DNA from: a virus
Direction: 5' to 3' (one strand)
Virus record (IMG/VR): IMGVR_UViG_3300022699_000028
Location: 1 to 28,995 of that record
Length of the DNA: 28,995 bases
The notes under the pieces are model-generated. The model was given only the letters and a program-made list of their open reading frames with translations, did not search any database and was not told the origin of the DNA. The position numbers were made by a program, and so were the translations under genes. Positions 544 to 14,217 of this stretch are shown here, in pieces. Every line of letters begins with the position of its first letter. The first letter of the stretch is position 1.

Positions 544-544
544 T

Positions 545-3049: not shown

Positions 3050-3460
3050 ATGAGAACTCTCAAGCGCATCATCCTCCATTGTACCGCTACTCCTGAAGGT
3101 AAACACTTTGACGTAGCAACAATCCGCAAGTGGCATTTGGAGCGTGGATGGAAGGACATCGGCTACCACTATGTCATCTACTTGGATGGCTCGGTACACG
3201 AAGGCCGACCTATTGAGAAGGTGGGAGCGCATACAAGCGGTCACAACGATGATTCTATTGGTGTGGTGTATGTTGGCGGATGCGATTCCAAGATGAAAGC
3301 GAAGGACACTTTGAACGAAGCACAAGAGGTAGCGTTGGTTAATTTGATACAGGCATTGCGAGCAGCACACGGAGAGCTATCCCTTCACGGACACAACGAG
3401 TACGCAAACAAGGCCTGCCCTTCGTTTAACGTCAAAACCAAATTCCATTGGCTTCTTTAG
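3050..3460 (+). CDS. Endolysin, T7-lysozyme-like N-acetylmuramoyl-L-alanine amidase
   Basis: 136 residues forming a single amidase_2/PGRP domain that would cut the bond between N-acetylmuramic acid and the stem peptide in the periplasm. Landmarks match T7 lysozyme: H10 in IILHCTAT, Y39 in IGYHYVIYLDG, H115 in LHGHNEY, and K121 plus C123 in NKACPSF. H10, H115 and C123 are the likely zinc ligands; Y39 and K121 correspond to the catalytic tyrosine and lysine of T7. The spacing from H115 to C123 is the same 8 residues. There is no signal peptide, so it needs a holin, and two candidates lie just upstream. A spanin candidate follows by 24 bases. Confidence 0.9.
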   Translation: MRTLKRIILHCTATPEGKHFDVATIRKWHLERGWKDIGYHYVIYLDGSVHEGRPIEKVGAHTSGHNDDSIGVVYVGGCDSKMKAKDTLNEAQEVALVNLIQALRAAHGELSLHGHNEYANKACPSFNVKTKFHWLL

Positions 3461-3484
3461 AGGACTTCATCAACGATTTAGAAA

Positions 3485-3883
3485 ATGCGCCACAACCGAC
3501 TTGCAATATTGACAATCCTGACGAGTGTACTTCTTGCGGCAGTTAGCGGATGCCGTACTGCTCAACCTATCCTCGAGAGTGTGATTGTAAGGGACACGGT
3601 GATTGTCACGGAGCCAAAGTACCTGCTCGACACATTGGAGGTGATGAAGGACACCGTAATCTACAAAGACAAGGTTCGGGTGCAGCTTCAGTACATCGAC
3701 CGAAAGGTCGTGGTTGAGGCAGCTTGCGAACCGGATACGATCCGCATCACCCAAACCAAAATCCTCACCAAGCAGGAGCCGAAGGTCAAGAAGTGGACTT
3801 TGGAATCGTACTTGGGAGCTTTGGCTTTCATCTTGACGTTTGCCTACCTCATCAAGCGGTGGGTTGACAAACTGACGGAATAA
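3485..3883 (+). CDS. Unimolecular spanin (u-spanin) candidate
   Basis: 132 residues. The N-terminus is a lipoprotein signal: basic MRHNR, hydrophobic 6-20, then a lipobox ending VSGC with cysteine 23. The middle (33-100) is beta-rich with repeated phrases such as RDTVIVTEP and KDTVIYKDK. Residues 109-123 (YLGALAFILTFAYLI) are a C-terminal membrane span followed by KRW. An outer-membrane lipid anchor plus an inner-membrane span in one protein is the defining layout of u-spanins such as T1 gp11, which is of nearly identical length. It follows the endolysin by 24 bases. Its role would be fusing the two membranes in the last lysis step. Family assignment rests on topology and position, not homology. 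Confidence 0.7.
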   Translation: MRHNRLAILTILTSVLLAAVSGCRTAQPILESVIVRDTVIVTEPKYLLDTLEVMKDTVIYKDKVRVQLQYIDRKVVVEAACEPDTIRITQTKILTKQEPKVKKWTLESYLGALAFILTFAYLIKRWVDKLTE

Positions 3884-3898
3884 GCCCGTAGAGGGCAT

Positions 3899-3959
3899 TT
3901 ATATGCGTTCTCATACACTTTCTACCAAAAGTGGGATGGTTGTATGGTTTCGCATATAA
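3899..3959. repeat. Long interrupted inverted repeat
   Basis: Outer arms TTATATGCG (3899-3907) and CGCATATAA (3951-3959) are perfectly complementary. Inside them CATAC (3912-3916) pairs with GTATG (3942-3946), and CACTTT (3916-3921) pairs with AAAGTG (3928-3933). The whole could fold as a branched or bulged hairpin. It does not end in a T-run, so it is not a simple terminator. Confidence 0.65.
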
Positions 3960-4024
3960 TAGTGGCTTAAATCAAAGATTCCTTTCTTTTTCTTTGTTAA
4001 GTTTCTTTTTCTTTCAAGTAGTTG

Positions 4025-4100
4025 GTCAAGTTATATATTGACTTACTTGATAGTTAAGTCAAGTTATAGTTTAACTTAAGTAAGTAAGTTAAGTAAGTTG
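4025..4100. repeat. Cluster of short direct and inverted repeats (iteron-like)
   Basis: GTCAAGTTATA occurs at 4025-4035 and 4058-4068, 33 bases apart. TTGACTTA (4038-4045) and TAAGTCAA (4055-4062) form an inverted pair. From 4074 the sequence is ACTTAAGT followed by tandem AAGTAAGT/AAGTTAAGT units. Repeats of this density in AT-rich DNA suit binding of an initiator or repressor. Confidence 0.6.
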
Positions 4101-4219
4101 TAAAAAAAACTAAATAAACTTGACATACGCAAGTACCTATGCATAGATTATGCTAATTTTTAATCATTCTAAATAGTGAACGACCATATTTTCATTTATT
4201 GGGATGACTTACCTTTGGG

Positions 4220-4233
4220 TAAACCATCAGAGA
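4220..4233 (+). promoter_or_regulatory. Degenerate AAACCATCAGAGA leader deciding the 4234 start
   Basis: TAAACCATCAGAGA precedes ATG 4234 and is a one-gap variant of the AAAACCAATCAGA leader. It favours 4234 over the in-frame ATG at 4204, whose extra 10 residues are not part of the family fold. Confidence 0.4.
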
Positions 4234-4518
4234 ATGAGCAAGACACCAACATACTACATCGGGAAAACACTCGGCATAGAGGCGAAGGATGTGGTGATGG
4301 ACTTCCAACCTGACAACTACAATTTAGGTACGGCACTCACCTACCTGATGCGAGCAGGAAAGAAGCCCAACAACCCCATAACCCAAGACATCCGCAAGGC
4401 TATCGCACACCTTGAGTTTGAATTAGAACGCCAAATAAAGCAACAAACCACCGATGAGCATTCAGGAACAAGCGCAACAGGTCAAATCAACGATGTCAAG
4501 TATGCAGTACTATACTAA
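4234..4518 (+). CDS. DUF3310-like protein (nucleotide-kinase-related family)
   Basis: 94 residues from ATG 4234. The core, TYYIGKTLGIEAKDVVMDF, then NLGTALTYLMRAGKKPNNP, then DIRKAIAHLEFELER, has the order and spacing of the DUF3310 family: helix, LGxAxxYxxRAGKK, paired helix. That family is common in phages and has been linked to nucleotide metabolism; whether this copy has any kinase activity is unknown. It is the first gene after the non-coding control region, hence likely among the earliest expressed. Its 3' end overlaps the next gene by 65 bases. The poorly ordered C-terminal tail (TTDEHSGTSATGQ) is probably not part of the domain. Confidence 0.7.
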   Translation: MSKTPTYYIGKTLGIEAKDVVMDFQPDNYNLGTALTYLMRAGKKPNNPITQDIRKAIAHLEFELERQIKQQTTDEHSGTSATGQINDVKYAVLY

Positions 4519-4702
4519 CCCTGCCAAGCGCAGGAAGATTGACTTCTTGCTCGCTGAATGCGCTTCCCTGTTCGCCAACTGCGATAGCACCTACCAAGCC
4601 CGCCAAGAGGCGAAATACAAAGAGCAATCAATTCTTGCAGAAATCGCAAAGATTGATATTCACTTCGCCATCCAATGCGGGTACCTGCAACAGGACATCT
4701 AA
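4454..4702 (+). CDS. Small hypothetical protein (82 aa)
   Basis: 82 residues starting MSIQEQAQQVKST, with a predominantly helical pattern and no recognised domain. An alternative start at M14 (ATG 4493) would shorten the long 65-base overlap with the DUF3310-like gene. Its end overlaps the RusA-like gene by 28 bases. The nested arrangement suggests translational coupling of three early genes. Function unknown. Confidence 0.55.
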   Translation: MSIQEQAQQVKSTMSSMQYYTNPAKRRKIDFLLAECASLFANCDSTYQARQEAKYKEQSILAEIAKIDIHFAIQCGYLQQDI

Positions 4703-5061
4703 AGTCCTACCACGTTGTAGTGGGCAAAGTCCCAAGCCTCAATGCCTTCTACGCATCAAAGCATTGGACGGTACGAGCAAAGGCCAAAGACAAGCATTGC
4801 GCTGAAGTGTTGCAACAATTGCAAGAGTACGACTGCGTACCCATTCAGCACGTCTACATAACCTGCAAGGTCAACTACCGCTACGACATAGACAACTCTA
4901 TTATGGCGGTCAAGTTTGCCCTTGACGCATTCCGCAAATGGGGAGGAGTGAAGGATGACTCACGAGCGTATGTCCGGAAGCTAAAGATGGAACACGATCC
5001 CGACATACATCCCGACACTGCAGAAATTACCTTTCAAGGTTTGGTGGTTGAGCAAAATTGA
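4675..5061 (+). CDS. RusA-like Holliday junction resolvase
   Basis: 128 residues. The N-terminal VVVGKVPSLNAFYASKHW segment and the block NYRYDIDNSIMAVKFALDAFRKWGGVKDDSRAYV match the RusA family. Metal-binding acidic residues would be D71, D73 and D94 or D95, with K80 equivalent to the conserved lysine. RusA enzymes cut four-way DNA junctions; in phages they resolve recombination intermediates or branched DNA before packaging. The first 10 residues are not part of the fold, and a slightly later start is possible. It lies in the replication module with a helicase, a DNA-binding protein and a RecE-type nuclease. Confidence 0.85.
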   Translation: MRVPATGHLKSYHVVVGKVPSLNAFYASKHWTVRAKAKDKHCAEVLQQLQEYDCVPIQHVYITCKVNYRYDIDNSIMAVKFALDAFRKWGGVKDDSRAYVRKLKMEHDPDIHPDTAEITFQGLVVEQN

Positions 5062-5070
5062 TTATATTTG
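5041..5070 (+). promoter_or_regulatory. Bacteroidetes-type promoter (TTG-N19-TATATTTG)
   Basis: TTG at 5041-5043, exactly 19 bases, then TATATTTG at 5063-5070. This matches the Bacteroidetes -33 TTG / -7 TAnnTTTG consensus. Transcription would begin just before the leader of the 5095 gene. The promoter lies within the last codons of the RusA-like gene. Confidence 0.65.
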
Positions 5071-5081
5071 TCCTGTCAACT

Positions 5082-5092
5082 AAAACCAATCA
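5082..5092 (+). promoter_or_regulatory. AAAACCAATCA leader of the 5095 gene
   Basis: Full match to the recurrent early leader, 2 bases upstream of ATG 5095. Confidence 0.6.
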
Positions 5093-5094
5093 TT

Positions 5095-5235
5095 ATGACA
5101 CTCAACCTTTCACAGGACACCTACTCCCAAGCGTTAATTGCGCAGCAAGCGCAAATCCAAGCACTCCAAAACAAAGTACAGGAACTTGAAGCCAAGATTC
5201 AGGTATTGGAGCAGCAATCACTTCTATTCATTTAA
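5095..5235 (+). CDS. Small coiled-coil protein (46 aa)
   Basis: 46 residues from an ATG preceded by a promoter and the AAAACCAATCA leader. Residues 18-42 (AQIQALQNKVQELEAKIQVL) are a clear heptad coiled coil. There are no cysteines and no membrane span. Its stop codon TAA forms part of the next copy of the leader, which drives the DNA-binding-like gene 12 bases later. It is probably highly expressed together with that gene. Function unknown; oligomerisation is the only inference supported. Confidence 0.65.
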   Translation: MTLNLSQDTYSQALIAQQAQIQALQNKVQELEAKIQVLEQQSLLFI

Positions 5236-5244
5236 AACCAATCA
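5234..5244 (+). promoter_or_regulatory. AAAACCAATCA leader of the 5248 gene
   Basis: Exact second copy of the leader, overlapping the stop codon of the coiled-coil gene and 3 bases upstream of ATG 5248. Confidence 0.6.
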
Positions 5245-5247
5245 ACA

Positions 5248-5685
5248 ATGGCTAAAATCGTAAGCATCACCCCTACGGGGCAATGGCAAGACCTGTTCAA
5301 GTTAGAGATCCGTTTCGACAACGGTGACTTCGGAACTGCGTTTGCAAAATCACAAACCCCATCCTACCAAGTAGGTGATGAGGTAGAGTACTCCAAGAAC
5401 GAAAAGGGTACTATCAAAATCCAACGCCCAAACAATTTTGGCGGTGGTGGAAGTTTCGGAGGCAGCTTTTCCAACGCTTCGAAATCGTCAGGAGATGACC
5501 GTTCCGCTTCCATCATCCGCCAAGTTGCCCTGAAGGCAGCAGTAGAGTATGCAAGTGCAGCCGGTCACGATGTGAACACCATCTTGGCGAACGCAGAGAC
5601 CTTTAACAAGTGGATGACGGGCCAATCAGCCGCACCCGCTTCGCACACCGAACACTTCGCTACACGCAACGAATCGCCTTTCTGA
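5248..5685 (+). CDS. Single-stranded DNA-binding-like protein (OB-fold candidate)
   Basis: 145 residues in three parts. Residues 1-62 (AKIVSITPTGQWQDLFKLEIRF ... VGDEVEYSKNEKGTIKIQRP) have the alternating pattern of a small five-strand OB fold. Residues 63-80 are a flexible Gly/Ser linker (NFGGGGSFGGSFSNAS). Residues 85-130 are helical, and the tail ends NESPF. An OB fold, Gly-rich linker and terminal PF tip mirror bacterial SSB, whose acidic-PF tip recruits replication proteins, although this tip is less acidic. The place just before the helicase, with its own strong leader and followed by a strong terminator, fits an abundant DNA-binding protein. Assignment is by architecture only. Confidence 0.55.
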   Translation: MAKIVSITPTGQWQDLFKLEIRFDNGDFGTAFAKSQTPSYQVGDEVEYSKNEKGTIKIQRPNNFGGGGSFGGSFSNASKSSGDDRSASIIRQVALKAAVEYASAAGHDVNTILANAETFNKWMTGQSAAPASHTEHFATRNESPF

Positions 5686-5711
5686 TTGGTTTCTTGGCAT
5701 CGTTGTGATAG

Positions 5712-5734
5712 AGCCTCCTTCGGGAGGCTTTTTT
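5712..5734 (+). terminator. Rho-independent terminator with TTCG loop
   Basis: Stem AGCCTCC (5712-5718), loop TTCG, complementary GGAGGCT (5723-5729), then a run of six T. It closes the transcription unit of the coiled-coil and ssDNA-binding-like genes. Confidence 0.92.
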
Positions 5735-5758
5735 ATTTAGAAAACTTTTCTATATTTG
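5729..5758 (+). promoter_or_regulatory. Promoter for the helicase operon
   Basis: TATATTTG at 5751-5758 fits the -7 TAnnTTTG box; the -33 position (5729-5731) reads TTT instead of TTG and overlaps the terminator T-run. It is followed directly by an AGACCAATCA leader and ATG 5775. Confidence 0.5.
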
Positions 5759-5760
5759 TC

Positions 5761-5770
5761 AGACCAATCA
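5761..5770 (+). promoter_or_regulatory. AGACCAATCA leader of the helicase gene
   Basis: One-base variant of the early leader, 4 bases upstream of ATG 5775. Confidence 0.5.
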
Positions 5771-5774
5771 GAAT

Positions 5775-6707
5775 ATGAAACATCCCGACCTTTTACCAAA
5801 CGAAGCATCGCTTCCATACCTACAACGTGCGCTTAAAGGCAAGTACTACGACACCGGAAAGCTCGGTGTCTTTGAGTTAGACCAATACTTACGCTTCAAA
5901 GATGGAGAATTTGTGGTCGTAACAGGCCACGCTAATGTGGGCAAGACCCACACCTTGATGTACCTGATGCTCTTGCAGAGTTACAATCACGGCAAGAAGT
6001 GGCTCATCTACTCATCGGAAAACGATGTGCATTCACTCAAGCGCAAGCTCATTGAGTTTCTTGCTTGCAAGCCCATTCAGGGTCTTGATGAACTTACGAT
6101 GCACCGCAAGCTTGACTTCATCAATGAGTACTTTCAGTTCATAGACGGCAACAGACTATTTAACGCATTTGAACTCTTGGACGTAATGGACTCTATCAAA
6201 AACGAATGGGAGTACACAGGTGCGTTGATAGACCCATACAACTCGTTGTCTACCGATCAGAAAAAACTTGGCAAGACGGGTATGCACGAATACCACTACG
6301 AGGTGGCTTCTGCCATACGAGTCTTCGCCCACAAGAACAACGTCACGACCATCGTCAACACCCACCCCGTAACGGAGGCAATGCGTAAGACGCACCCGCC
6401 AAGCCATACCTACGCAGGGATGCCAATGCCACCGATGACCTCCGACATTGAAGGTGGCGGCAAGTGGGGCAACAGGGCCGATTCGGTACTCGTGGTTCAC
6501 AGGTACTCGCAGAGCGAGGTCGATTGGATCTACACTCACATCCACGTCCGCAAGGTCAAAGAGATGGAAACAGGAGGCCGTGTAACGCCATTAGAAACAC
6601 CCCTCGTCTTACAGTCCATAATTGGTAATGTTGGATTCAAGATGAATGGTCGTAACTTGCTCGGCATAAAAGAAGACGAAACCCCCTCTGCTGATGTACC
6701 CTTCTGA
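5775..6707 (+). CDS. RecA-fold replicative helicase / ATPase (DnaB-Twinkle type)
   Basis: 310 residues. Walker A is GHANVGKT (51-58) after FKDGEFVVVT. WLIYSSENDVHSLKRKLIEF (76-95) resembles the SxE-type segment of DnaB family helicases. Walker B is LIDPYNSL (151-158) with D153. TTIVNTHPV (191-199) corresponds to the QxH-like sensor, and the C-terminal part has DIEGGGKWGNRADSVLVVHR. The protein is close to the size of a helicase C-terminal domain alone, without the N-terminal primase or collar domain, so it would unwind DNA with host primase and polymerase. The end DVPF echoes the PF tip of the upstream DNA-binding protein. It overlaps the next gene by 14 bases. Confidence 0.8.
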   Translation: MKHPDLLPNEASLPYLQRALKGKYYDTGKLGVFELDQYLRFKDGEFVVVTGHANVGKTHTLMYLMLLQSYNHGKKWLIYSSENDVHSLKRKLIEFLACKPIQGLDELTMHRKLDFINEYFQFIDGNRLFNAFELLDVMDSIKNEWEYTGALIDPYNSLSTDQKKLGKTGMHEYHYEVASAIRVFAHKNNVTTIVNTHPVTEAMRKTHPPSHTYAGMPMPPMTSDIEGGGKWGNRADSVLVVHRYSQSEVDWIYTHIHVRKVKEMETGGRVTPLETPLVLQSIIGNVGFKMNGRNLLGIKEDETPSADVPF

Positions 6708-7005
6708 CGATTCCCACGACCTTTACATCAGAGAGAAACAACTGATGCTTGCCGGTACGGCAATGTTCCTTGCAAAGCAAGCAGCAGACAAAGCAAACGG
6801 ACGAGAGGTACAGGACGAGATGCTGCACCACGTAATGAATTGCCACTACGCAGACCTCCTGCTACAACAGTTCATTGACTACCGTCAGTTCATTGAGAGC
6901 AAGATGAACGAGATGTACCTCGCCAACGCCAAGCTACGGGTTGACAACGAGGAGATGCACTACGAGATTGAGCGACTGCAAAAAATCATTGAGGACAATA
7001 TATGA
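6694..7005 (+). CDS. Helical/coiled-coil protein of unknown function (103 aa)
   Basis: 103 residues from ATG 6694, overlapping the helicase end by 14 bases and the next gene by an ATGA. It is rich in M, E, Q and Y; residues 60-100 (FIESKMNEMYLANAKLRVDN then EMHYEIERLQKIIE) form a probable coiled coil. No catalytic motif is recognised. Coupling to the helicase suggests a replication accessory role such as loader or regulator, but this is unproven. Confidence 0.6.
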   Translation: MYPSDDSHDLYIREKQLMLAGTAMFLAKQAADKANGREVQDEMLHHVMNCHYADLLLQQFIDYRQFIESKMNEMYLANAKLRVDNEEMHYEIERLQKIIEDNI

Positions 7006-7232
7006 AGCAGATCTTCTCTCCGTTTCAGAAGTTTGAATGCTTTGAAGCAAAAGGCGATCAATTCCTTGTACTTGACTACACCATCATCCAAGACAACGAA
7101 GACAAGCTCGTTGAATGGTGCAGCGTAATGAGCATCAAACGCCTGAAAGACCACAAGCACTATATGCTACCGATGACTCAAATCTTGGAGAAATACAAAA
7201 CAAAAGAACTTAAACCAATCAAGTGCAAATGA
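7002..7232 (+). CDS. Small hypothetical protein (76 aa)
   Basis: 76 residues starting MKQIFSPFQKFECFEAKGDQFLVLDY, with a mixed alpha/beta pattern and three cysteines that do not form a recognisable metal site. It begins in an ATGA overlap with the coiled-coil gene and ends in an ATGA overlap with the DnaA-like gene. Its last codons (LKPIKCK) are written by the TAAACCAATCA leader of the following gene. I do not recognise the family. Confidence 0.6.
   Translation: MKQIFSPFQKFECFEAKGDQFLVLDYTIIQDNEDKLVEWCSVMSIKRLKDHKHYMLPMTQILEKYKTKELKPIKCK
7211..7221 (+). promoter_or_regulatory. TAAACCAATCA leader deciding the DnaA-like start
   Basis: This copy lies inside the end of the 7002 gene. With the ATGA overlap at 7229-7232 it favours ATG 7229 over the in-frame GTG at 7223. 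Confidence 0.5.
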
Positions 7233-7642
7233 GAGCTTTCGAATTACAACAAATGGAGCGAGCCAAGAACGCTATTTTCGCACGTCTTGGACTTGAGGAC
7301 AGGGACACCCGCAAAAGGGAATACACCCTTGCAAGAGGCGCATTCGCCAACGCCTACCGAAGCAAGGCTACGCTGATAGAGATAGGAAGAATCATAGGTC
7401 GTGACCATTCGTCCATTGTCCACGCTTATAAGGAACACGGAGCAAGACTCGCTTACAAAGACTACCGTTGGGCATACAAGGTTGCCTGTGAAATCCGTGA
7501 GGAGTACCCCATTGAAGCCATCGAAAACGTGGATGTAAGTTCTTTGGAGAACGAAGTCAAACGGCTTAACGATATGGTAAGCGAGTTAGTTAAATATAAA
7601 GAACTATATTTAAATCTGAAAAAGACCTTCGATGAATTTTAA
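7229..7642 (+). CDS. Stand-alone DnaA domain-IV-like DNA-binding protein
   Basis: 137 residues from ATG 7229. Residues 27-75 match the C-terminal DNA-binding domain of DnaA: a helix with TRKREYTLARGAFANAYR, then the turn ATLIEIGRIIGRDHSSIVHAYKEH. The GRDHSSIVHA block is the DnaA signature that reads DnaA boxes. There is no AAA+ domain, so this is not an initiator ATPase on its own. The remainder ends in a coiled coil (ENEVKRLNDMVSELVKYKEL). It could mark the phage origin, recruit the phage helicase, or compete with host DnaA. It sits between the helicase gene and the sigma-like gene. Confidence 0.75.
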   Translation: MRAFELQQMERAKNAIFARLGLEDRDTRKREYTLARGAFANAYRSKATLIEIGRIIGRDHSSIVHAYKEHGARLAYKDYRWAYKVACEIREEYPIEAIENVDVSSLENEVKRLNDMVSELVKYKELYLNLKKTFDEF

Positions 7643-7781
7643 TGTTGGCATCTACCCCGTGTATGGTTTTGTTCTTGGTGTGAATTGGTCAAAGACCGAC
7701 TACCTTGATGAAGAAGAAACCATCCAACAAATACAAGTTGCGATCGGTATACTAATAGTTGAATTTAGTTGGAACTCCTGA
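7632..7781 (+). CDS. Small hypothetical protein (49 aa)
   Basis: ATG 7632 opens 49 codons overlapping the end of the DnaA-like gene by 11 bases and the start of the sigma-like gene by 13 bases. The protein reads MNFNVGIYPVYGFVLGVNWS, an acidic stretch (DYLDEEET), then a hydrophobic C-terminus (IQVAIGILIVEFSW). It is too short and weakly hydrophobic for a confident membrane call. The tiling of overlaps on both sides is the main support. Confidence 0.55.
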   Translation: MNFNVGIYPVYGFVLGVNWSKTDYLDEEETIQQIQVAIGILIVEFSWNS

Positions 7782-8305
7782 CAATACTTGCGGCACGTCA
7801 TACCGATTGGATTCGGATGGCCCGGAGCTTTGGTGCAGACCAAGAGCTTGCGCAAGATATTGTCCAAGAAATGTACGTGCGCCTGTACAAATATGTTGAG
7901 GACGCAGAGAAAATAATGTACAACGAGAAGGAGGTCAATACCTTTTTTGTCTACGTTACGCTTCGAAATATGTACACGAGCTTAATGAAGGCAAAAGCAA
8001 GATTCGAGTTTGTAGACATCTCCACCATTGAGGATGACCTTATCTTCGAGGAGGCCAACGAAGAAGCCGAAAAGAACCTCGTCAGCCTGTACAACGAGAT
8101 TTGGGAGTTCGCTGACGAATGGCATTGGTACGACAAGAAGATCTTTGCCCTCTATCACAACACCGATATGAGCATTCGCACCCTTGCGGATGAAACCAAA
8201 ATTTCAGCACGTTCAATTTTCAACACCCTAAAAAATGCAAGAGAACGAATCCAAGAAGAATGCAACGACTCCTACCAAGCGTGGAGGTCGGCCCAAGAAG
8301 AATAG
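7769..8305 (+). CDS. Phage sigma-70-like (ECF-type) RNA polymerase sigma factor
   Basis: 178 residues from a TTG start, as no suitable ATG exists. Residues 13-75 resemble sigma region 2: FGADQELAQDIVQEMYVRLYKY, then VNTFFVYVTLRNMYTSLMK. Residues 122-162 resemble region 4 with a helix-turn-helix: DKKIFALYHNTDMSIRTLAD, then KISARSIFNTLKNARERI. An acidic linker (82-105) joins them. The protein would bind host core RNA polymerase and redirect it, most simply to late phage promoters. Candidate targets are the GTTATTTAGTTGA boxes found only in late regions. It overlaps its neighbours by 13 and 71 bases. The exact start is uncertain. Confidence 0.75.
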   Translation: MELLTILAARHTDWIRMARSFGADQELAQDIVQEMYVRLYKYVEDAEKIMYNEKEVNTFFVYVTLRNMYTSLMKAKARFEFVDISTIEDDLIFEEANEEAEKNLVSLYNEIWEFADEWHWYDKKIFALYHNTDMSIRTLADETKISARSIFNTLKNARERIQEECNDSYQAWRSAQEE

Positions 8306-8642
8306 CGGACTCGGTGACACCATCGAGGCAATCACCACCGCAACCGGAATCAAAGCTGCGGTAGATTGGTTCAGCGAGCAGACGGGCATCGACTGCGGCT
8401 GCGAAGCCCGCAAGGAGAAGCTCAATCAGTTGTTCCGATACAAGAAGCCTGAGTGTTTGACGCAAGCCGAGTATGAGTTCATTGGAACCGTGAAGGGCAA
8501 GAACGTGATTACGGCTGCGCAGCAGGATGAGATCAACAAAATCTACAACCGTGTCTTTCACGACCGAGTGCAAGCAACAGGCTGCGGATCTTGCCTAAGG
8601 ACTCGTGTGCAAGAATTGGAGACCCTGTACAACGCCTACTGA
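8235..8642 (+). CDS. Cysteine-containing protein with AT-hook-like N-terminus (135 aa)
   Basis: 135 residues. The N-terminus has TPTKRGGRPKKNSG, an AT-hook-like RGRP element that can grip AT-rich minor groove. Then follows GDTIEAITTATGIKAAVDWF, a CGCEARKEKLNQLF segment with three nearby cysteines (counting GIDC), KKPECLTQAEYEFI, and a C-terminal GCGSCLR. The paired cysteine clusters suggest a zinc site. This resembles a family often seen in Bacteroidetes phages near terminase or replication genes; no function is known to me. It overlaps the sigma-like gene by 71 bases and shares TGATG with the restriction-like gene. Confidence 0.65.
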   Translation: MQENESKKNATTPTKRGGRPKKNSGLGDTIEAITTATGIKAAVDWFSEQTGIDCGCEARKEKLNQLFRYKKPECLTQAEYEFIGTVKGKNVITAAQQDEINKIYNRVFHDRVQATGCGSCLRTRVQELETLYNAY

Positions 8643-9292
8643 TGATCTACACCATCGACATCCCGAAGGATGTATTCAGGTCGTTAAACAAGAACGCCAA
8701 GATCAATCCGTACTTCAGCAAGGATGTAGTTGGTGAATGCGTCCGGTTGGTTTCGGACTACTACGAGACCACCGACAACCCAAATCAAAAGGGATGGGAA
8801 CAGTATTACAAGGATGTGCAGGGATGGGATGGCCTTTACATTGCTTTTGATGCCCTAACGGAACGCCTGCCTGACCTTGATGAGATGACTATCAAAAGGT
8901 ACATCTATCACCGTGTGCTTGGTCAGACGTGGAACGGCTTTGCAAAAGAGCTGATGGTCATTCACGACCTCAACATTGCATTCCCTGAGGCACACTTTAA
9001 GCGCACTTCGTTTGAGGTAGACCACGACTACTGCATTGACGCAGAGATGTACTTCGGTGAGACCTTGATTCTTGGCGTGCAGATTAAGCCTGAGTCTTAC
9101 CAAATGATGAGTACCCCATATCAGATGAAGGCCAAAGAGGGCCACCGAGCAAAAAACGAACGCTACAAAGAACAGTTTGCGCCCTACCTGTACGTCTACT
9201 ACAACGCAGACGGCATCAAGGATAAGCCGCAGCTAATGAATCAAATCAACACTTATTTACACTATGCCAATTCCCAAGCCACAAGCAGGTGA
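8642..9292 (+). CDS. MjaI-like type II restriction endonuclease
   Basis: 216 residues from ATG 8642, which forms TGATG with the previous stop; the upstream in-frame TTG at 8591 is rejected. The core is TWNGFAKELMVIHDLN (E103), then FEVDHDYCIDAEMYFGE (D127, D129, D133, E135), then LILGVQIKPESY (Q147, K149), then YKEQFAPYLYVYYNAD. This is a PD-(D/E)xK nuclease with a QxK variant and the WNG...QIKPxSY layout I associate with the MjaI family, whose prototype cuts CTAG. No methyltransferase for it is seen nearby. I found no CTAG in the whole genome, which would make self-protection unnecessary. Role inferred: host DNA breakdown or exclusion of rivals. Confidence 0.65.
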   Translation: MIYTIDIPKDVFRSLNKNAKINPYFSKDVVGECVRLVSDYYETTDNPNQKGWEQYYKDVQGWDGLYIAFDALTERLPDLDEMTIKRYIYHRVLGQTWNGFAKELMVIHDLNIAFPEAHFKRTSFEVDHDYCIDAEMYFGETLILGVQIKPESYQMMSTPYQMKAKEGHRAKNERYKEQFAPYLYVYYNADGIKDKPQLMNQINTYLHYANSQATSR

Positions 9293-9401
9293 GAAGCAAA
9301 GCGACTTCATTCAGAGATGTGTGGAGGCAATCGCAAGCGAGTACACCGACAAGGATCAAGCAGTAGCAATCTGCTACACACAATGGAGAGAGGGCAAATA
9401 G
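9264..9401 (+). CDS. Stand-alone 'PKPxxGE...CYxxW' small phage domain (45 aa)
   Basis: ATG 9264 opens 45 codons overlapping the nuclease gene by 29 bases. The sequence MPIPKPQAGEKQSDFIQRCV ... DQAVAICYTQWREGK matches a short motif that is usually found fused to phage prohead proteases or other virion proteins (IPKPxxGExxxxFIxRC, then QxxAVCYxxW). Here it stands alone in the early region. The two cysteines (C19, C37) may pair or bind metal. Its stop codon lies inside the terminator hairpin. Function is unknown to me. Confidence 0.7.
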   Translation: MPIPKPQAGEKQSDFIQRCVEAIASEYTDKDQAVAICYTQWREGK

Positions 9402-9412
9402 CCCTCTTTTTT
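9389..9412 (+). terminator. Rho-independent terminator
   Basis: AGAGGGC (9389-9395), loop AAATA, complementary GCCCTCT (9401-9407), then a T-run to 9412. It ends the helicase-to-nuclease transcription unit. Confidence 0.9.
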
Positions 9413-9443
9413 ATTCAAAGTATATTCTATTTCAGCCATAGTG

Positions 9444-9473
9444 TTGTGGGTGTCAATGCTTTGTGTACATTTG
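9444..9473 (+). promoter_or_regulatory. Bacteroidetes-type promoter (TTG-N19-TACATTTG)
   Basis: TTG at 9444-9446, 19 bases, then TACATTTG at 9466-9473. It directly follows a terminator and precedes an AAAACCAATCA leader, so a fresh transcription unit starts here. Confidence 0.65.
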
Positions 9474-9483
9474 GGTATCATTT

Positions 9484-9494
9484 AAAACCAATCA
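9484..9494 (+). promoter_or_regulatory. AAAACCAATCA leader of the 9497 gene
   Basis: Full match to the early leader, followed by GA and ATG 9497. It supports translation of the 30-residue membrane peptide. Confidence 0.6.
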
Positions 9495-9496
9495 GA

Positions 9497-9589
9497 ATGA
9501 AACACATACTTTCTTTTGTTGCTCAAGCCATCGCAGCTGCGGTAGTTTTATGGGCTTATTTATGGACTCTTCAAATCGTTGGACTATGA
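9497..9589 (+). CDS. 30-residue membrane peptide
   Basis: ATG 9497, just after a promoter and the early leader, opens only 30 codons: MKHILSFVAQAIAAAVVLWA then YLWTLQIVGL. Apart from K2, H3 and Q residues it is entirely hydrophobic, long enough for one membrane span with the N-terminus inside. It ends in an ATGA overlap with the 9586 gene. Because it has its own promoter and leader it is probably expressed early and strongly. Possible roles are superinfection exclusion, membrane signalling, or a leader that sets translation of the next gene. None can be shown here. Confidence 0.6.
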   Translation: MKHILSFVAQAIAAAVVLWAYLWTLQIVGL

Positions 9590-9912
9590 ATTTTGACTAT
9601 CAAGATTTGAAGTTTTGGCTTGAAGACAAGGACGTGCTTCCGCAAGCCTATTGGGATGCCCTTGAGGACTACGACCCCGACAACCTGAACTCTGACCAAG
9701 TTCTATCTAATTGGCTTGGCTATGCCCACGTCAACGACTTCTACGCCTACGAGATGGACATCACCTACCACGAGGAGCAAGCGGATGTAGACGGTTACAT
9801 TATGACAACCGCCTACCCCACATCATCCATCCATAACCCACCGCCTGCACTTGATGAGCAGATTTACTATGCGTACATTAATTGGGCAACAACCGTAGCA
9901 TCAGAAGAATGA
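9586..9912 (+). CDS. Acidic aromatic protein of unknown function (108 aa)
   Basis: 108 residues from the ATGA overlap with the membrane peptide. It is very acidic and rich in Y, W and D: LKFWLEDKDVLPQAYWDALE, then YDPDNLNSDQVLSNWLGYAH. The strongly negative surface could mimic DNA, a strategy known from some phage anti-restriction proteins; that is speculation from composition only. A longer open frame upstream lacks a proper start and is ignored. It ends in an ATGA overlap with the next small gene. Confidence 0.65.
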   Translation: MNFDYQDLKFWLEDKDVLPQAYWDALEDYDPDNLNSDQVLSNWLGYAHVNDFYAYEMDITYHEEQADVDGYIMTTAYPTSSIHNPPPALDEQIYYAYINWATTVASEE

Positions 9913-10076
9913 AAACGATTGCCCAAACATTGCGAGAGCTGAAGACAATAGACCTGTCTGAATCAATGCTCAAGGATATTGAGTTGATGGAGCAAGTCAA
10001 CCTGCGCCACGCCTACCACGATGCGCTGATTCGTGTGCCGTTTGAGGAATGGTACGATTCAAATTTTCGTAAATAA
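9909..10076 (+). CDS. Small helical protein (55 aa)
   Basis: 55 residues from ATG 9909, which overlaps the previous stop in ATGA; an in-frame TTG at 9882 is less likely. The sequence MKTIAQTLRELKTIDLSESM then MLKDIELMEQVNLRHAYHDA is mostly helix. No motif recognised. It is the last gene before a probable promoter and the RecE-type nuclease. Confidence 0.6.
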   Translation: MKTIAQTLRELKTIDLSESMLKDIELMEQVNLRHAYHDALIRVPFEEWYDSNFRK

Positions 10077-10095
10077 GCAATTTTTCTTATCTTTA
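10066..10095 (+). promoter_or_regulatory. Weak promoter before the RecE-type nuclease
   Basis: TATCTTTA at 10088-10095 matches the -7 box except the last base. The -33 position reads TTC. It is supported mainly by position, directly before an AAAACCAATCA leader. Confidence 0.35.
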
Positions 10096-10097
10096 AC

Positions 10098-10108
10098 AAA
10101 ACCAATCA
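10098..10108 (+). promoter_or_regulatory. AAAACCAATCA leader of the 10110 gene
   Basis: Full match to the early leader, one base before ATG 10110. Confidence 0.6.
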
Positions 10109-10109
10109 A

Positions 10110-10880
10110 ATGAAAATCATAGAACTACTTGACGGAAGCACTTGGGATATGGACACAGTCCTTGCCAAGATGCAGGATGACTCCTTCTACTACGGCAACC
10201 TGTCAAAGAACGCCCTATCATCATCGGCTTGCAAGCTGCTGCTGACCTCACCCAAGACCTACCACTACGTCACCAAGTACGGCAGCGAGGACTCCGATGC
10301 CTTTGCCGTTGGTCGCTTGGTTCACCTGATGGCTCTTGAGCCTCACAAGGTAGAGGAGTACGAGGTGATAGAGGTGCAAAGCAAGAACGCAAAGGCTTGG
10401 CAAGATGCTAAAGGCAAGCGCAACATCTGTACCCGTAAGGAGTACAACGAAGCTCAACGCATCGCTGATGCCCTGCTTCGCAACGAATACTTCTTGTCAA
10501 TGATTGAGGGCTGCGAGTTTGAGAAGCCTGCAATCGGATTGATAGAGGGTATGCCCTTCCGAGCAAAGGCAGACATCATTGCTGATGGCTTCTTGGCTGA
10601 CCTGAAAACAACAACCGACCTACGGGCATTCCCTTACTCTGCAAAGAAGTATGGCTACGATGTACAGGCGTTCATCTACACTCGGTTGTTTGGTGTGCCG
10701 ATTGACAAGTTCTACTTTATCGCCATTGACAAGGCGAGCTTGGATGTGGGGATTTATTCTATCAGTCCTGAGTTCGTAGCGGAAGGCGAAAGAAAAACGC
10801 TTGAGGCAATTGAACTGTACAAGCAGTTCTTCATCTTGGGTGAGGACTTGGACTCGTACACCATCTTCGGTGAACTTTAA
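10110..10880 (+). CDS. PD-(D/E)xK exonuclease, RecE/Cas4-like
   Basis: 256 residues. The conserved ladder of this superfamily is visible: H72 in FAVGRLVHLMALEP, D155 in PFRAKADIIADG, the DxK pair D164-L-K166 in FLADLKTTTD, and the YxxQ motif with Q186 in YGYDVQAFIYTRLF. The order is that of RecE-type and exodeoxyribonuclease VIII-like phage nucleases, which chew 5' ends to make single strands for recombination. No RecT-type annealing protein is recognised next to it; the OB-fold-like protein or an unknown gene might serve. It starts a run of small genes that share a leader. Confidence 0.8.
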   Translation: MKIIELLDGSTWDMDTVLAKMQDDSFYYGNLSKNALSSSACKLLLTSPKTYHYVTKYGSEDSDAFAVGRLVHLMALEPHKVEEYEVIEVQSKNAKAWQDAKGKRNICTRKEYNEAQRIADALLRNEYFLSMIEGCEFEKPAIGLIEGMPFRAKADIIADGFLADLKTTTDLRAFPYSAKKYGYDVQAFIYTRLFGVPIDKFYFIAIDKASLDVGIYSISPEFVAEGERKTLEAIELYKQFFILGEDLDSYTIFGEL

Positions 10881-10892
10881 CACCAACGAGAA
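10876..10892 (+). repeat. Gene leader repeat 1 of 4 (TTTAACACCAACGAGAA)
   Basis: 17 bases directly before ATG 10893, overlapping the stop of the nuclease gene. Identical to the copy at 11078. Confidence 0.8.
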
Positions 10893-11075
10893 ATGCCAAA
10901 TATAGGAGAGCTTCGCAAGAATGAAATGCAAGAAATAATTGACTTCTATCATCACATAGAAGAATATGGACATATCTTTTATGGCGACAATTCTGAATTA
11001 GAAGATGCGTTTAAAAAGATAATGGAAGGAATTGAGCAAATAAGAGTAATTATGGATGATTATTACAGCTATTAA
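10893..11075 (+). CDS. Small acidic protein (60 aa), first of a leader-repeat gene series
   Basis: 60 residues, acidic and helical, starting MPNIGELRKNEMQEIIDFYH. The coding sequence is visibly more AT-rich than the nuclease gene before it. It is the first of four small unrelated genes, each preceded by nearly the same 17-base leader. No family recognised. Confidence 0.6.
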   Translation: MPNIGELRKNEMQEIIDFYHHIEEYGHIFYGDNSELEDAFKKIMEGIEQIRVIMDDYYSY

Positions 11076-11077
11076 CC

Positions 11078-11094
11078 TTTAACACCAACGAGAA
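11078..11094 (+). repeat. Gene leader repeat 2 of 4
   Basis: Identical 17-mer to the copy at 10876-10892, directly before ATG 11095. Confidence 0.8.
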
Positions 11095-11298
11095 ATGAGA
11101 GAACTATTAGAACGTTTGTATGTGATACAAAAGAAGACGCACGTAAATGAGTACGGAACATACACACTTAAGCGACTCAATCCATATCACCCATTAACAT
11201 ACATCGTTATTCCAATGTACTATGCTTTGGCTATTGCTATGTATGGTTTCGTTGGCTATAAGCAAGAAATGGATTCTGACTTTTTTAGATGGCAATAA
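11095..11298 (+). CDS. Small membrane protein (67 aa)
   Basis: 67 residues. The N-terminal half is basic (RELLERLYVIQKKTH); residues 34-53 (LTYIVIPMYYALAIAMYGFV) form one membrane span; the tail is acidic and aromatic (DSDFFRW). AT-rich, like its upstream neighbour. Function unknown. The leader repeat before it is an exact copy of the preceding one. Confidence 0.6.
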   Translation: MRELLERLYVIQKKTHVNEYGTYTLKRLNPYHPLTYIVIPMYYALAIAMYGFVGYKQEMDSDFFRWQ

Positions 11299-11300
11299 CA

Positions 11301-11317
11301 TTTAACACAAACGAGAA
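11301..11317 (+). repeat. Gene leader repeat 3 of 4
   Basis: TTTAACACAAACGAGAA, one mismatch to copies 1 and 2, directly before ATG 11318. Confidence 0.75.
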
Positions 11318-11509
11318 ATGAAACAAACAGCAGTAGAGTGGTTGATGGAGATAGACAAATCTCGTGCAATCACCATAGAAGAATGGCAACAAGCCAAAGA
11401 AATTGAGAAGTATGCAGCGCAGCAATATGCAGAATTTGCAATTGAATGTTACAGAAAAGAACTTCCCGTTCTTGAGTTTGATGGATGGATTAACCACCTT
11501 AGACACTAA
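11318..11509 (+). CDS. Small helical protein (63 aa), 'QTAVEWL' type
   Basis: 63 residues starting MKQTAVEWLMEIDKSRAIT, then EEWQQAKEIEKYAAQQYAEF. The opening QTAVEWL phrase followed by an amphipathic E/Q/K/A helix recurs in small early proteins of many Bacteroidetes phages, as far as I recall, but no function has been assigned. Third gene of the leader-repeat series. Confidence 0.65.
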   Translation: MKQTAVEWLMEIDKSRAITIEEWQQAKEIEKYAAQQYAEFAIECYRKELPVLEFDGWINHLRH

Positions 11510-11515
11510 CGAGAA
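11499..11515 (+). repeat. Gene leader repeat 4 of 4
   Basis: TTAGACACTAACGAGAA, the most diverged copy, directly before ATG 11516. Confidence 0.65.
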
Positions 11516-11737
11516 ATGAAAGCAACACTTGAATACAACCTACCCGATGAGCAAGACGAGTTTGAGAAGGCCGTCAACGCAGGCAAGTACGCCTACATCA
11601 TTTGGGAGCTTGACCACTTCTTGAGAGCCAATACCAAGTACGCTCCTGATTCAATGCCTGATGAGGTTCACAAAGCCTACGAGAGAACAAGAGACAAATT
11701 GCATTCACTACTAATCGAAAACGATTTATCGCTATGA
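11516..11737 (+). CDS. Small protein (73 aa), 'ATLEYNLPDEQDEFEKAVN' type
   Basis: 73 residues. The pattern of a short strand (KATLEYNLP), an acidic turn (DEQDEFEKAV), AYIIWELDHFLRANTKYA and a C-terminal helix ending in LIENDLSL resembles small conserved proteins of Bacteroidetes phages and prophages. Function unknown. It is the last gene with the 17-base leader and ends in an ATGA overlap with the next gene, so the following genes are coupled to it. Confidence 0.65.
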   Translation: MKATLEYNLPDEQDEFEKAVNAGKYAYIIWELDHFLRANTKYAPDSMPDEVHKAYERTRDKLHSLLIENDLSL

Positions 11738-11982
11738 GAGACCAATTTATGAGGATTGCGATGGCTCGCCTACGCAAGACCTATCCCTTCAAACCCCAAC
11801 GCAGAGCAGTAGCTGCGAAGATGTGGAGCGACTACCTTGAGCGCAAAGCAATGAAAGGATGGTTTAAATATCAAGAATCGCAATGCCAAGCTCACGCACG
11901 TTGGCAGGATGAAGAAGAAAAGCTGAACGCACGGATGGACATCATCGGGCAGAACGGAAATACAGGCGAACACTATGAGTAG
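11734..11982 (+). CDS. Small basic protein of unknown function (82 aa)
   Basis: 82 residues, basic and tryptophan-containing: RIAMARLRKTYPFKPQRRAV, then KMWSDYLERKAMKGWFKYQE. It may bind nucleic acid, but no motif proves it. It starts in an ATGA overlap and overlaps the glycosyltransferase gene by 8 bases, linking the small-gene series to the glycan module. Confidence 0.6.
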   Translation: MRDQFMRIAMARLRKTYPFKPQRRAVAAKMWSDYLERKAMKGWFKYQESQCQAHARWQDEEEKLNARMDIIGQNGNTGEHYE

Positions 11983-12916
11983 ACCATTTGTGGTAGCATT
12001 CCACAAGCCAAACTCAGGCGTGTCCTATCACCGTGTGTTCGCCCCTCTGATTTGCCATCAGGAGGCGGACATTTATTTTGTAGAAAAAATCACGGATGTA
12101 GACCCTGAGGTGTGGCCTAAGGTCACCCACGTCTTCGCTTCACGAGCGTTTCCCGTTGAGCCGTTTGATGACTTCGTGATCCTATGCAAGCGTGAGGGCA
12201 TCAAGCTGATCGTTGATCAGGACGATTGGTGGGTGCTACCTCCGACCCATCCCTTGCGTGGCATCTATGCCGACAAGATGAAAGACCGCATCATCCGGTC
12301 GCTCAAAGTAGCTGACGAGGTGTGGGTCACCAACAAGCACCTTGCCTCAAAGGTCAAGCGGTACAACCGCAACATCCGAATCATCCCAAACGGAATCAGC
12401 GTACCCACTTGGCAGGTAGAGCGAGAGCCGAGCGACAAAGTACGCTTTGGCTACATCGGAGGCAACCACCATCAGATTGACGTGCGTGAATCAACCATTG
12501 ACCTCACGGGGTACGAGGCATTTGTTGCTGACGTGGACAACTACCCGCAGATGATGAAGGCCAAGACCACCCTCAAGACCTTCCCGCCTGTGGCCTACCA
12601 TAAGCTCTACGACTTCTTTGACGTGAGCCTTGTGCCGCTTTCAACATCCGAGTTCGCAAAGTGTAAATCGCACTTGAAGATGCTTGAGGCAGGATTCAGC
12701 AAATGCGCCCTGATCATAAGCAAGACGGAACCCTACCTGCCCTACATCACAAAGGACAACTGCATTGCCATCTCTCACCCATCTGAATGGGCAGCAGCAA
12801 TCAAGAGACTAAACGACAACCCCAATCAAGTTGCTGACATAGCGGAATCGTTATACGAGTTCGTCCAAGACTACACTATGACCAAAATCAACGAACTCCG
12901 ATGCTTTACATTGTAA
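11975..12916 (+). CDS. GT-B fold glycosyltransferase
   Basis: 313 residues with a two-domain GT-B layout. N-terminal domain: FVVAFHKPNSGVSYHRVFAP, LIVDQDDWW (78-86), EVWVTNKHLASKV. The hinge is RIIPNGISV (135-143). The C-terminal domain starts with RFGYIGGNHHQID. The donor-binding segment is DVSLVPLSTSEFAKCKSHLK then MLEAGF, with K231, K235 and E238 placed like the Lys/Glu of family 4 enzymes. It would transfer a sugar from a nucleotide-activated donor. The acceptor (host surface glycan, virion protein or DNA base) cannot be read from sequence. It overlaps the next glycosyltransferase by 16 bases. Confidence 0.8.
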   Translation: MSRPFVVAFHKPNSGVSYHRVFAPLICHQEADIYFVEKITDVDPEVWPKVTHVFASRAFPVEPFDDFVILCKREGIKLIVDQDDWWVLPPTHPLRGIYADKMKDRIIRSLKVADEVWVTNKHLASKVKRYNRNIRIIPNGISVPTWQVEREPSDKVRFGYIGGNHHQIDVRESTIDLTGYEAFVADVDNYPQMMKAKTTLKTFPPVAYHKLYDFFDVSLVPLSTSEFAKCKSHLKMLEAGFSKCALIISKTEPYLPYITKDNCIAISHPSEWAAAIKRLNDNPNQVADIAESLYEFVQDYTMTKINELRCFTL

Positions 12917-13428
12917 CCCCTTGCTCACGTCCTCAAAACCTCAAGAGGATCAAACAGTACATCCCACCCTACGCAACGTGGGTAGTGATGATGGACGCAA
13001 ATTGCGACTTCAAGGAAGCAACAGGCGCAAACGTAACCCACTACTCAAAGAACACAGGACATTGGGGACACCCACTACGCAACGAGTTCCTTGACCTGTA
13101 CCAAGACCAATTCACGCAAGATGATTGGGTTTACTTCTTGGATGATGACAACATTCTACACCCCAAGTTCATCGTTGAATGGAACAACCTAAACTCCCTT
13201 GACTCGTCCATCGTGACGTGGGGACAAGAGGGACGGCTCCGCCCAACAGACCAACCAAGAGTCGGCAACATAGACACCGCCTGCTTTATGTTCAAACCCT
13301 ACCACGTTCCCAAGATTCGATTCAATAACACCTACGAGGCAGATGGAACCTTTGCAGAGGTAGTAGCCAAGCAGGGAACACTTATCTGCGTAGATGCCTA
13401 CCTTTGCTATTATAACGCTTTACGATGA
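12901..13428 (+). CDS. GT-A fold glycosyltransferase
   Basis: 175 residues. It opens LYIVTPCSRPQNLKRIKQYI, the nucleotide-binding start of family 2-like enzymes. It carries DDWVYFLDDDNILHPKFI with the metal-binding DDD at 81-83, and a HPLRNEFLDLY segment that would pack against the donor. At 175 residues it is a minimal catalytic domain without membrane spans. It starts inside the end of the GT-B gene and ends in an ATGA overlap with the methyltransferase, so the three are made together and probably act on the same glycan. Confidence 0.8.
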   Translation: MLYIVTPCSRPQNLKRIKQYIPPYATWVVMMDANCDFKEATGANVTHYSKNTGHWGHPLRNEFLDLYQDQFTQDDWVYFLDDDNILHPKFIVEWNNLNSLDSSIVTWGQEGRLRPTDQPRVGNIDTACFMFKPYHVPKIRFNNTYEADGTFAEVVAKQGTLICVDAYLCYYNALR

Positions 13429-13952
13429 AAAACTACAAAGACATTGATGGGTGGTTCAACCACCAAGCAGCATACGACTACCTCCTTGCCAATATGCCCA
13501 AAGACGGAACCTTCGTTGAGTTGGGTGCTTGGCTCGGCAAGTCCTCATCCTACCTGTGCGACAAAGCAACAGGCCAAAACATATTCATCGTTGACTCCTT
13601 CAAAGGGACGGCAGAATACTTGGACTCGTACTACAAGCTCGCAAAGACCAAAGACATCTACCAACTGTTCTTGGAGAATATGGGTGCCCGGAACTACACC
13701 GCCATCAAAGCAACATCCAAAGCAGCAGCACGCAAGTTCAAAGCCGAGTCATTGGACGTGGTATTCATAGACCTTGACCATTCCTACGAAGCAGTCAAAG
13801 AAGACATCAAGCTATGGCTTCCTAAAGTAAAGAAGGGAGGCTACATAGCAGGAGACGATTATCACGAAAATTGGAAAGGAGTCATCCAAGCAGTAGACGA
13901 GCTACTCCCTCACGCTACGTTCATTGACGATTGTTGGATCTACCAAAAATGA
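13425..13952 (+). CDS. Class I SAM-dependent methyltransferase (Methyltransf_24-like)
   Basis: 175 residues. Motif I is VELGAWLGKSSSYL (31-44), the acidic residue after strand 2 is in IFIVDSFKG, and a later DVVFIDLDHSYEAVKEDIKL block plus KKGGYIAGDDYHENW is typical of Methyltransf_24 enzymes, often small-molecule or sugar O-methyltransferases. It lacks NPPY/DPPY-type motifs of DNA base methyltransferases, so it is unlikely to be a partner of the restriction-like nuclease. Coupled by ATGA overlaps to the GT-A gene and to the HNH gene. Substrate unknown; a methylated sugar is the simplest guess. Confidence 0.8.
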   Translation: MKNYKDIDGWFNHQAAYDYLLANMPKDGTFVELGAWLGKSSSYLCDKATGQNIFIVDSFKGTAEYLDSYYKLAKTKDIYQLFLENMGARNYTAIKATSKAAARKFKAESLDVVFIDLDHSYEAVKEDIKLWLPKVKKGGYIAGDDYHENWKGVIQAVDELLPHATFIDDCWIYQK

Positions 13953-14203
13953 AGAACCACACAAAGGTCTACCTCAAAGGGATGGGATACGACACCACCG
14001 ATTGGATTCCCTGCGAGGTATGCCAATCAAAAGCCGTAGACATCCACCACATCGAGGCACGAGGTATGGGAGGCTCAAAGCACGCAGATACCATCGACAA
14101 CCTGATGGCCCTGTGCCGTGCGTGTCATAACGCATTCGGGGACAAGACCCACTATAAGGAATTGCTGAAGGCAACCCACGCTTTGCGAATGAGTAAGGTA
14201 TAG
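13949..14203 (+). CDS. HNH endonuclease of the packaging module
   Basis: 84 residues from ATG 13949 (ATGA overlap); an in-frame TTG at 13931 is less likely. The motif is CEVCQSKAVDIHHIEARGMGG, with C22 and C25, H33 and H34, then NLMALCRACHNAFGDK with C56, C59 and H60. This is a complete HNH site with two CxxC zinc knuckles. HNH proteins next to terminase genes take part in cutting DNA during packaging in several siphoviruses (HK97 type). The tight spacing before the terminase genes supports that role. Confidence 0.85.
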   Translation: MKNHTKVYLKGMGYDTTDWIPCEVCQSKAVDIHHIEARGMGGSKHADTIDNLMALCRACHNAFGDKTHYKELLKATHALRMSKV

Positions 14204-14204
14204 G

Positions 14205-14217
14205 GTTATTTAGTTGA
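14205..14217 (+). promoter_or_regulatory. GTTATTTAGTTGA late box before terminase
   Basis: Best match to the late box. It lies 18 bases upstream of ATG 14236, just after the HNH stop, and would start the packaging transcription unit. Confidence 0.45.

Follow-up and report, generated by a model that had tools for sequence, protein, structure and literature searches.

A solitary MjaI-family endonuclease gene in a phage genome without CTRG, and the loss of this word in related carriers

We analysed a stretch of 28,995 nucleotides (hereafter, the window), corresponding to positions 1 to 28,995 of the IMG/VR virus record IMGVR_UViG_3300022699_000028. The window derives from a tailed phage whose terminase is closest, at about 42% identity, to those of phages of Parabacteroides and Bacteroides; this phage and its relatives are probably phages of Bacteroidota, and a search of INPHARED by DNA and by the nuclease protein gave no similar phage. 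The gene under study encodes a putative nuclease and lies within the replication and recombination module, among consecutive genes on the same strand; a sigma-factor-like gene on the left and a DUF3799 gene on the right border the variable slot that contains it (Table 1). The sigma-factor-like gene matched Pfam Sigma70_r2 at E 1.1e-4, below the cut-off, and a PHROG sigma factor at E 6e-5; it forms our gene cluster 2 and was found in 175 relatives. The DUF3799 gene matched Pfam DUF3799 (E 6e-26) and PHROG exonuclease VIII (E 6e-37), and served as an anchor in our search for relatives. The small gene immediately upstream of the nuclease had no match in Pfam or PHROG; its stop codon overlaps the nuclease ATG (TGATG at 8640-8644).

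Table 1. Features of the nuclease locus and of the window
Feature	Position	Strand	Basis
Sigma-factor-like gene, left border of variable slot	7769..8305	+	Pfam, PHROG
Small gene just upstream of nuclease	8235..8642	+	Stop overlaps nuclease ATG
Putative orphan MjaI-family (PF09568) endonuclease, 216 aa	8642..9292	+	Pfam, model, conservation, dN/dS
Codon of E103, invariant acid on long helix 81-113, putative active site	8948..8950	+	Homologues, model
Codon of D133, putative metal-binding Asp, start of strand 134-138	9038..9040	+	Homologues, model
Codons of Q147-I148-K149, putative (E/Q)xK catalytic motif, strand 141-150	9080..9088	+	Q147 and K149 invariant; model
DUF3799/exonuclease-VIII-like gene, right border of slot	10110..10880	+	Pfam, PHROG
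CTAG-, CCAG- and CTGG-free stretch	1..28995	both strands	0 vs 218 expected

The initial annotation had named an MjaI-like nuclease at this position, and profile searches bore this out. The protein matched Pfam RE_MjaI with 30.9 bits (E 2.9e-7; curated cut-off, 22.7), and a six-frame search for RE_MjaI gave 30.4 bits, again above the cut-off. The dN/dS values among relatives were 0.05-0.10, indicating a working gene. The AlphaFold2 model (pLDDT 93.6, pTM 0.86) showed a PD-(D/E)XK-like core spanning residues 95-215, with a best Z of 8.6; this core aligned to Holliday-junction resolvases (Hjc, Z 8.6), to Vsr (Z 7.8) and, loosely, to BsaWI (Z 8.6 at an rmsd of 12.9). Foldseek with the model returned nothing under E 0.001, phmmer against PDB sequences gave no credible match, an NCBIfam search gave no match, and a scan of genome contigs yielded no confirmed homologue. 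Since the Z values are moderate, the fold class rests on the model, the family and the motif together. Residues E103, D133, Q147 and K149 were invariant in 24 homologues (37-89% identity), giving, with the model, a PD-(D/E)XK-type fold with conserved acidic and (E/Q)xK residues; the metal-binding role of D133 is assigned by analogy to PD-(D/E)XK enzymes.

In a Type II restriction-modification system, a cognate methyltransferase stands alongside the nuclease. No such gene was found in the window, as the initial annotation had also noted: none of the window genes bore a DNA-methyltransferase signature, and no open reading frame (ORF) contained a DPPY- or PPC-type motif, in a genome that may be incomplete because the last ORF runs off the window end. 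A gene at 13425-13952 that matched a PHROG 'DNA methyltransferase' was considered as a hidden DNA methylase and ruled out, having a FIDLDHSYE motif and no DPPY. We take this motif to be that of TylF-like O-methyltransferases; the gene matches Pfam Methyltransf_24 and adjoins glycosyltransferase-like genes.

Computed counts confirmed that the window contains no CTAG (0 in 28,995 bases versus 59 expected from a second-order Markov model or 111 from base composition) and that the other palindromes listed in the initial annotation are present: 60 GATC, 142 GTAC, 100 AGCT, 41 GGCC and 66 GCGC. CTAG was not the only missing word. CCAG/CTGG and CGCG were likewise absent, with 148 and 66 copies expected, respectively; CATG occurred once, at 2970, versus 127 expected; and there were no GGWCC or CGWCG sites. 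CCGG occurred 21 times, and CCAAGG/CCTTGG once. With zero copies of CTRG, the site that we predict below, and no methylase found, the enzyme fits the description of a solitary one. With several words besides CTAG gone, however, the window alone cannot assign any of these losses to the nuclease. No window gene could be linked to the losses of CGCG, GGWCC, CGWCG, CATG and CCAAGG/CCTTGG, for which host restriction is the likely cause.

Forty-six viral contigs encoded the nuclease at 59-89% identity (individual contigs are given below as L numbers). Nearly all of them lacked CTAG and CCAG/CTGG, and their CGCG, CCGG, GATC and TCGA counts varied. Gene-free relatives, in which the locus is present and the nuclease absent, were found through the terminase and the DUF3799 neighbour; this anchored comparison superseded a first search of 30 TerL relatives, which had found no nuclease and had no positive control. 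The contigs are metagenomic, and many of them are fragmentary. In a first set of 34 gene-carrying and 37 gene-free non-redundant contigs, CCAG was the only one of 136 tetramers to separate the two groups almost perfectly (AUC 0.002, p 4e-14), and CTAG was a weak correlate within this clade (AUC 0.25). Gene-free relatives in the window clade often lacked CTAG and CATG as well (L059, L066, L107 and L187, for example, were equally CTAG-free), and they kept CCAG, mostly at 0.1-1.0 of expectation, the lowest being L177 with 2/84. Because so many gene-free relatives avoid CTAG, its loss alone is weak evidence. A carrier and a gene-free contig (L016 and L151) came from the same sample, 3300020043, so encounters between the two kinds of phage are possible.

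A tree of 144 contigs, built from the concatenated sequences of three neighbour proteins, showed 24 changes in the state of the nuclease gene. Supported independent pairs linked the gene to CCAG loss at 13.6:0 (sign test, p 1.2e-4) and to CTAG loss at 9.1:0 (p 0.004), compared with 4.9:3.5 for CATG and 2.6:5.0 for GATC. All 60 carriers on the tree lacked both words (observed counts under 0.05 of expectation). When 81 gene clusters were compared for eight words, the nuclease ranked first for both CTAG and CCAG; for CCAG, no other cluster exceeded 3.5. None of the 81 clusters could be pinned to the loss of CGCG, CCGG, TCGA or GGCC. One of them, cluster 33 (for example, L102:3-1199), is a long cytosine-5 DNA methylase-like protein present in 36 relatives, whose CCGG count was 6/678 of expectation; the tree test gave this link no support. 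We also followed individual sites in 12 aligned pairs of gene-carrying and gene-free contigs, some of which share members, so that the totals are descriptive. Of the sites present in the gene-free member, the carrier had kept 0 out of 225 for CCAG and 0 out of 82 for CTAG, versus 47-79% for control tetramers. In the closest pair (L018 and L188, 91% identity), the values were 0 out of 19 and 0 out of 7, respectively, versus 79% for controls.

A second alignment extended the carriers to 42-53% nuclease identity and to phages of 28-47% GC. Among the distant carriers, 30 non-redundant contigs from outside the clade of the window (about 38-53% nuclease identity) gave observed counts over expectation of 0/924 for CTAG and 2/1046 for CCAG. 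In L222, L225, L229 and L230, among others, these were the only two strongly depleted tetramers, and across the distant carriers the loss of other words was no more than patchy. Distant gene-free relatives retained both words (CCAG 46/63 and CTAG 55/74 in L306; 56/66 and 48/59, respectively, in L308). Carriers and gene-free contigs of the low-GC set had 4/1522 versus 1284/2365 for CCAG (p 3e-15) and 3/1337 versus 1462/2501, or about 0.58, for CTAG (p 1e-13); in the high-GC set, the values for CCAG were 9/1937 versus 1738/3113 (p 7e-13). These Mann-Whitney p values ignore relatedness, and the independent-pair tests, which account for kinship, are the more trustworthy. The check on relatives proposed in the initial annotation, co-occurrence of gene and word loss, thus succeeded for CCAG and in the low-GC clades, and failed for CTAG alone in the window clade, where the gene-free contigs named above are CTAG-free.

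Pooling 80 non-redundant carriers, totalling 952 kb and with nucleases as little as about 40% identical, gave 5/2634 of expectation for CTAG and 13/3893 for CCAG/CTGG, versus 1697/3993 (0.425) and 3043/5567 (0.547), respectively, in 101 gene-free contigs with a complete slot. CTRG was absent altogether from 73 out of 80 carriers, compared with 5 out of 101 of these gene-free contigs. Among one-base variants of the site, 13 out of 14 were near or above 1 in carriers, the exception being CCGG, with a ratio of 0.09 in carriers and 0.32 in gene-free contigs. The joint loss of CCAG and CTAG points to CTRG (equivalently CYAG, comprising CTAG, CTGG and CCAG) as the predicted site. The CTAG specificity suggested in the initial annotation therefore stands in part: CTAG belongs to the predicted site, but CCAG/CTGG tracks the gene better, and so the site is widened. 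We dropped a CCAG-only specificity given the distant-carrier and low-GC data, in which CTAG is lost too, and did not favour CYRG, which would include CCGG, since CCGG occurs 21 times in the window and persists to some extent in other carriers. Vsr mismatch endonuclease is a known cause of CTAG depletion, with CTAG-type words converted to CCAG/CTGG; we rejected Vsr-type repair as the cause here, since CCAG/CTGG, which such repair should preserve or enrich, shows an even stricter loss than CTAG.

A few contigs departed from this pattern. Three carriers with an intact gene had clustered sites: 5 CCAG and 2 CTAG within 750 bp in L017/L139 (L017:5156-5906), 4 CTRG within 224 bp in L030 (3691-3914) and 2 CTRG at the contig end in L042. 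These clusters are candidates for recent imports or chimeric assemblies; if real, they would mean that a small number of sites can persist for some time and are not instantly lethal. Conversely, L260, L261, L265, L324, L251, L177, L322 and L333 were gene-free and yet CTRG-free or nearly so. L260 differs by 1.8% from a carrier, which fits, without proving, recent loss of the gene, and the CTRG-free L348 opens on the last part of the nuclease gene. A 109-aa slot gene, in which we saw no nuclease motif, was present at L322:7205-7531, L307:8923-9249 and L324:2342-2668; all three contigs are gene-free and strongly CTRG-depleted, possibly through recent nuclease loss or another cause.

Taken together, these results lead us to propose, with a probability of roughly 0.8, that the gene encodes a solitary Type II-like endonuclease of the phage that cuts CTRG, the phage being immune through site loss and not through a methylase. 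The enzyme would cut unmodified CTRG in the infected cell, no partner methyltransferase would belong to the system, and selection by the phage's own enzyme would have stripped nearly every CTRG from its genome, rendering it immune. From sequence, we infer that the enzyme would be made during infection and would then destroy the host chromosome and any co-infecting phages still bearing CTRG; gene-free sister phages, which keep many sites, would also be targets. The proposal in the initial annotation that an orphan MjaI-type nuclease is accompanied by self-protection through site loss is thus supported by the gene-word link among relatives. For the benefit to the phage, we favour a combination of two roles, keeping out competing phages and breaking down host DNA, which sequence cannot tell apart.

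Phages are known to lose the restriction sites of their hosts (PMC6286503), and a host enzyme that restricts CTRG could in principle drive the same loss, with the phage gene a bystander or harmless in a CTRG-methylated host. In gene-free relatives, the nuclease cannot be why CATG, CGCG, CCGG and some of the CTAG sites are depleted, and host restriction, which the initial annotation had offered as an alternative, probably does explain the CATG and CGCG losses and part of the CTAG loss. As an account of CTRG loss it is nevertheless unlikely, because the loss tracks the gene over 24 state changes, in distant clades, at 28-50% GC and in pairs at 91% DNA identity; under a host cause, every gain or loss of the gene would have to coincide with a change of host, and gene-free sisters would be purged as well. 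We regard as still less probable, at a few chances in a hundred, that the protein has lost its nuclease activity or works in the DNA metabolism of the phage itself (recombination or packaging), with hitch-hiking within clades producing the correlation. Its best fold matches are indeed Holliday-junction resolvases (Z 8.6) and it lies near the DUF3799 gene, but the catalytic residues are invariant, dN/dS is 0.05-0.10, and hitch-hiking fails to explain why exactly two related tetramers are lost on independent branches.

MjaI itself is CTAG-specific, and the phage enzyme might likewise cut CTAG only, with CCAG lost through another linked gene or a host system. Divergent homologues lend this idea some substance. 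L193 and L194 encode a 37%-identical homologue and have no CTAG, while CCAG is kept at about 0.45-0.55 of expectation; the L193 homologue (9983-10636), in which E135 is replaced by Q, is a possible natural CTAG-only variant. MjaI homologues also occur on two Paenibacillaceae megaplasmids of 510 and 414 kb (records L231 and L381 for Paenibacillus pSC2, and L196 and L382 for the Brevibacillus plasmid), with no methylase annotated near the homologue; in the 160 kb examined, CTAG was 0 of 63, 72 and 85 expected, and CCAG was normal. Within the phage group, however, CCAG is the better correlate, no other cluster of the 81 comes near, and in the window clade CTAG is frequently missing from gene-free contigs as well, all of which makes a CTAG-only phage enzyme very improbable. 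A CTAG-only ancestor whose site was later widened in the phage group is plausible.

Gene-free relatives carried other small nuclease-like (PD-(D/E)XK-like) proteins in the same slot. A 138-aa family, found at L305:8547-8960 and in about 49 gene-free relatives, has invariant E10, D35, E49 and K51, and its model resembles both Holliday-junction resolvases and SPARDA nucleases (lowest Foldseek E, 1.7e-5). It was the top correlate of CATG loss (40 out of 41 carriers on the tree), and CATG in the low-GC clade was 12/1426 in carriers versus 574/1763 (p 8e-12). Independent pairs stood at 4.6:0, less support than for the MjaI gene, and L300 carries the family yet keeps CATG; we consider it a candidate orphan CATG nuclease. 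A 130-aa family with an EVK motif (L337:8095-8484 and 10 relatives) was the top correlate of GATC loss (9 out of 10), with 2/287 versus 1534/3269 in non-carriers. Its independent pairs, at 5.7:0, again gave less support than those of the MjaI gene, and it is a candidate orphan GATC nuclease. A PDDEXK-looking slot protein of 162 aa occurred at L059:2965-3450 and in three relatives, including L177; GATC was 0/251 in these four carriers, a set too small to support a link.

Distinct nuclease-like families in one slot, each with its own missing word, are predicted if phages purge the sites of their own enzymes, and are hard to reconcile with a host-driven loss. We think it slightly better than an even bet that the slot is swappable, with several unrelated PD-(D/E)XK-like enzymes, the MjaI type for CTRG, the 138-aa family for CATG, the 130-aa family for GATC and perhaps others, exchanged between relatives without methylases and each erasing its own word genome-wide. 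If so, this would be restriction without modification, serving phage-phage competition or host takeover, and the words missing from a phage would be a record of the nucleases that it has now or had before. More broadly, missing words in phages are usually taken as scars of host restriction, whereas here the phage's own gene predicts the missing word in many independent lineages. This link would let restriction specificities be derived directly from genomes and hints at mutual restriction among related phages. How a genome with hundreds of sites can acquire such a gene is an evolutionary puzzle.

In the open-licence literature that we searched, we did not find an orphan 4-base cutter with self-immunity by genome-wide target erasure in phages. 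The window enzyme shares with the MjaI family (PF09568) its sequence family and the presence of CTAG within the predicted site, but it is phage-borne, has no methyltransferase in the window, and its predicted site is widened to CTRG/CYAG. In PacI, whose site has 8 bases, such a long sequence is easily lacking from a bacterium; here the site would be a degenerate 4-base word, expected about 218 times in 29 kb and purged repeatedly in phages. As proposed for the window enzyme, PacI lacks a methylase and relies for protection on the absence of its site: it is a solitary restriction enzyme of a bacterium, and the bacterial genome does not contain that site (PMC3488263). Avoidance of host sites by phages likewise removes short words genome-wide, but its driver is a host enzyme (PMC6286503), whereas here the enzyme would be the phage's own. 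Restriction-modification systems of chloroviruses and marseilleviruses have been proposed to act against host DNA and rival viruses, respectively (PMC7253447); they protect their own genomes by a methyltransferase, whereas here protection would come from site loss. Homing endonucleases have a rare target of more than about 12 bp at the insertion site, unlike the genome-wide loss of a 4-base word seen here, and we saw no intron or intein at the nuclease ORF, which is free-standing. One of them, gp210 of phage PhiPA3, mediates interference competition with PhiKZ (PMC11620839). Both gp210 and, as proposed here, the window enzyme are phage nucleases that harm a co-infecting relative and spare their own genome; gp210, however, is an intron-borne HNH enzyme with one gene as its target, whereas the window enzyme is PD-(D/E)XK-like and free-standing, and would act on a 4-base word across the whole genome.
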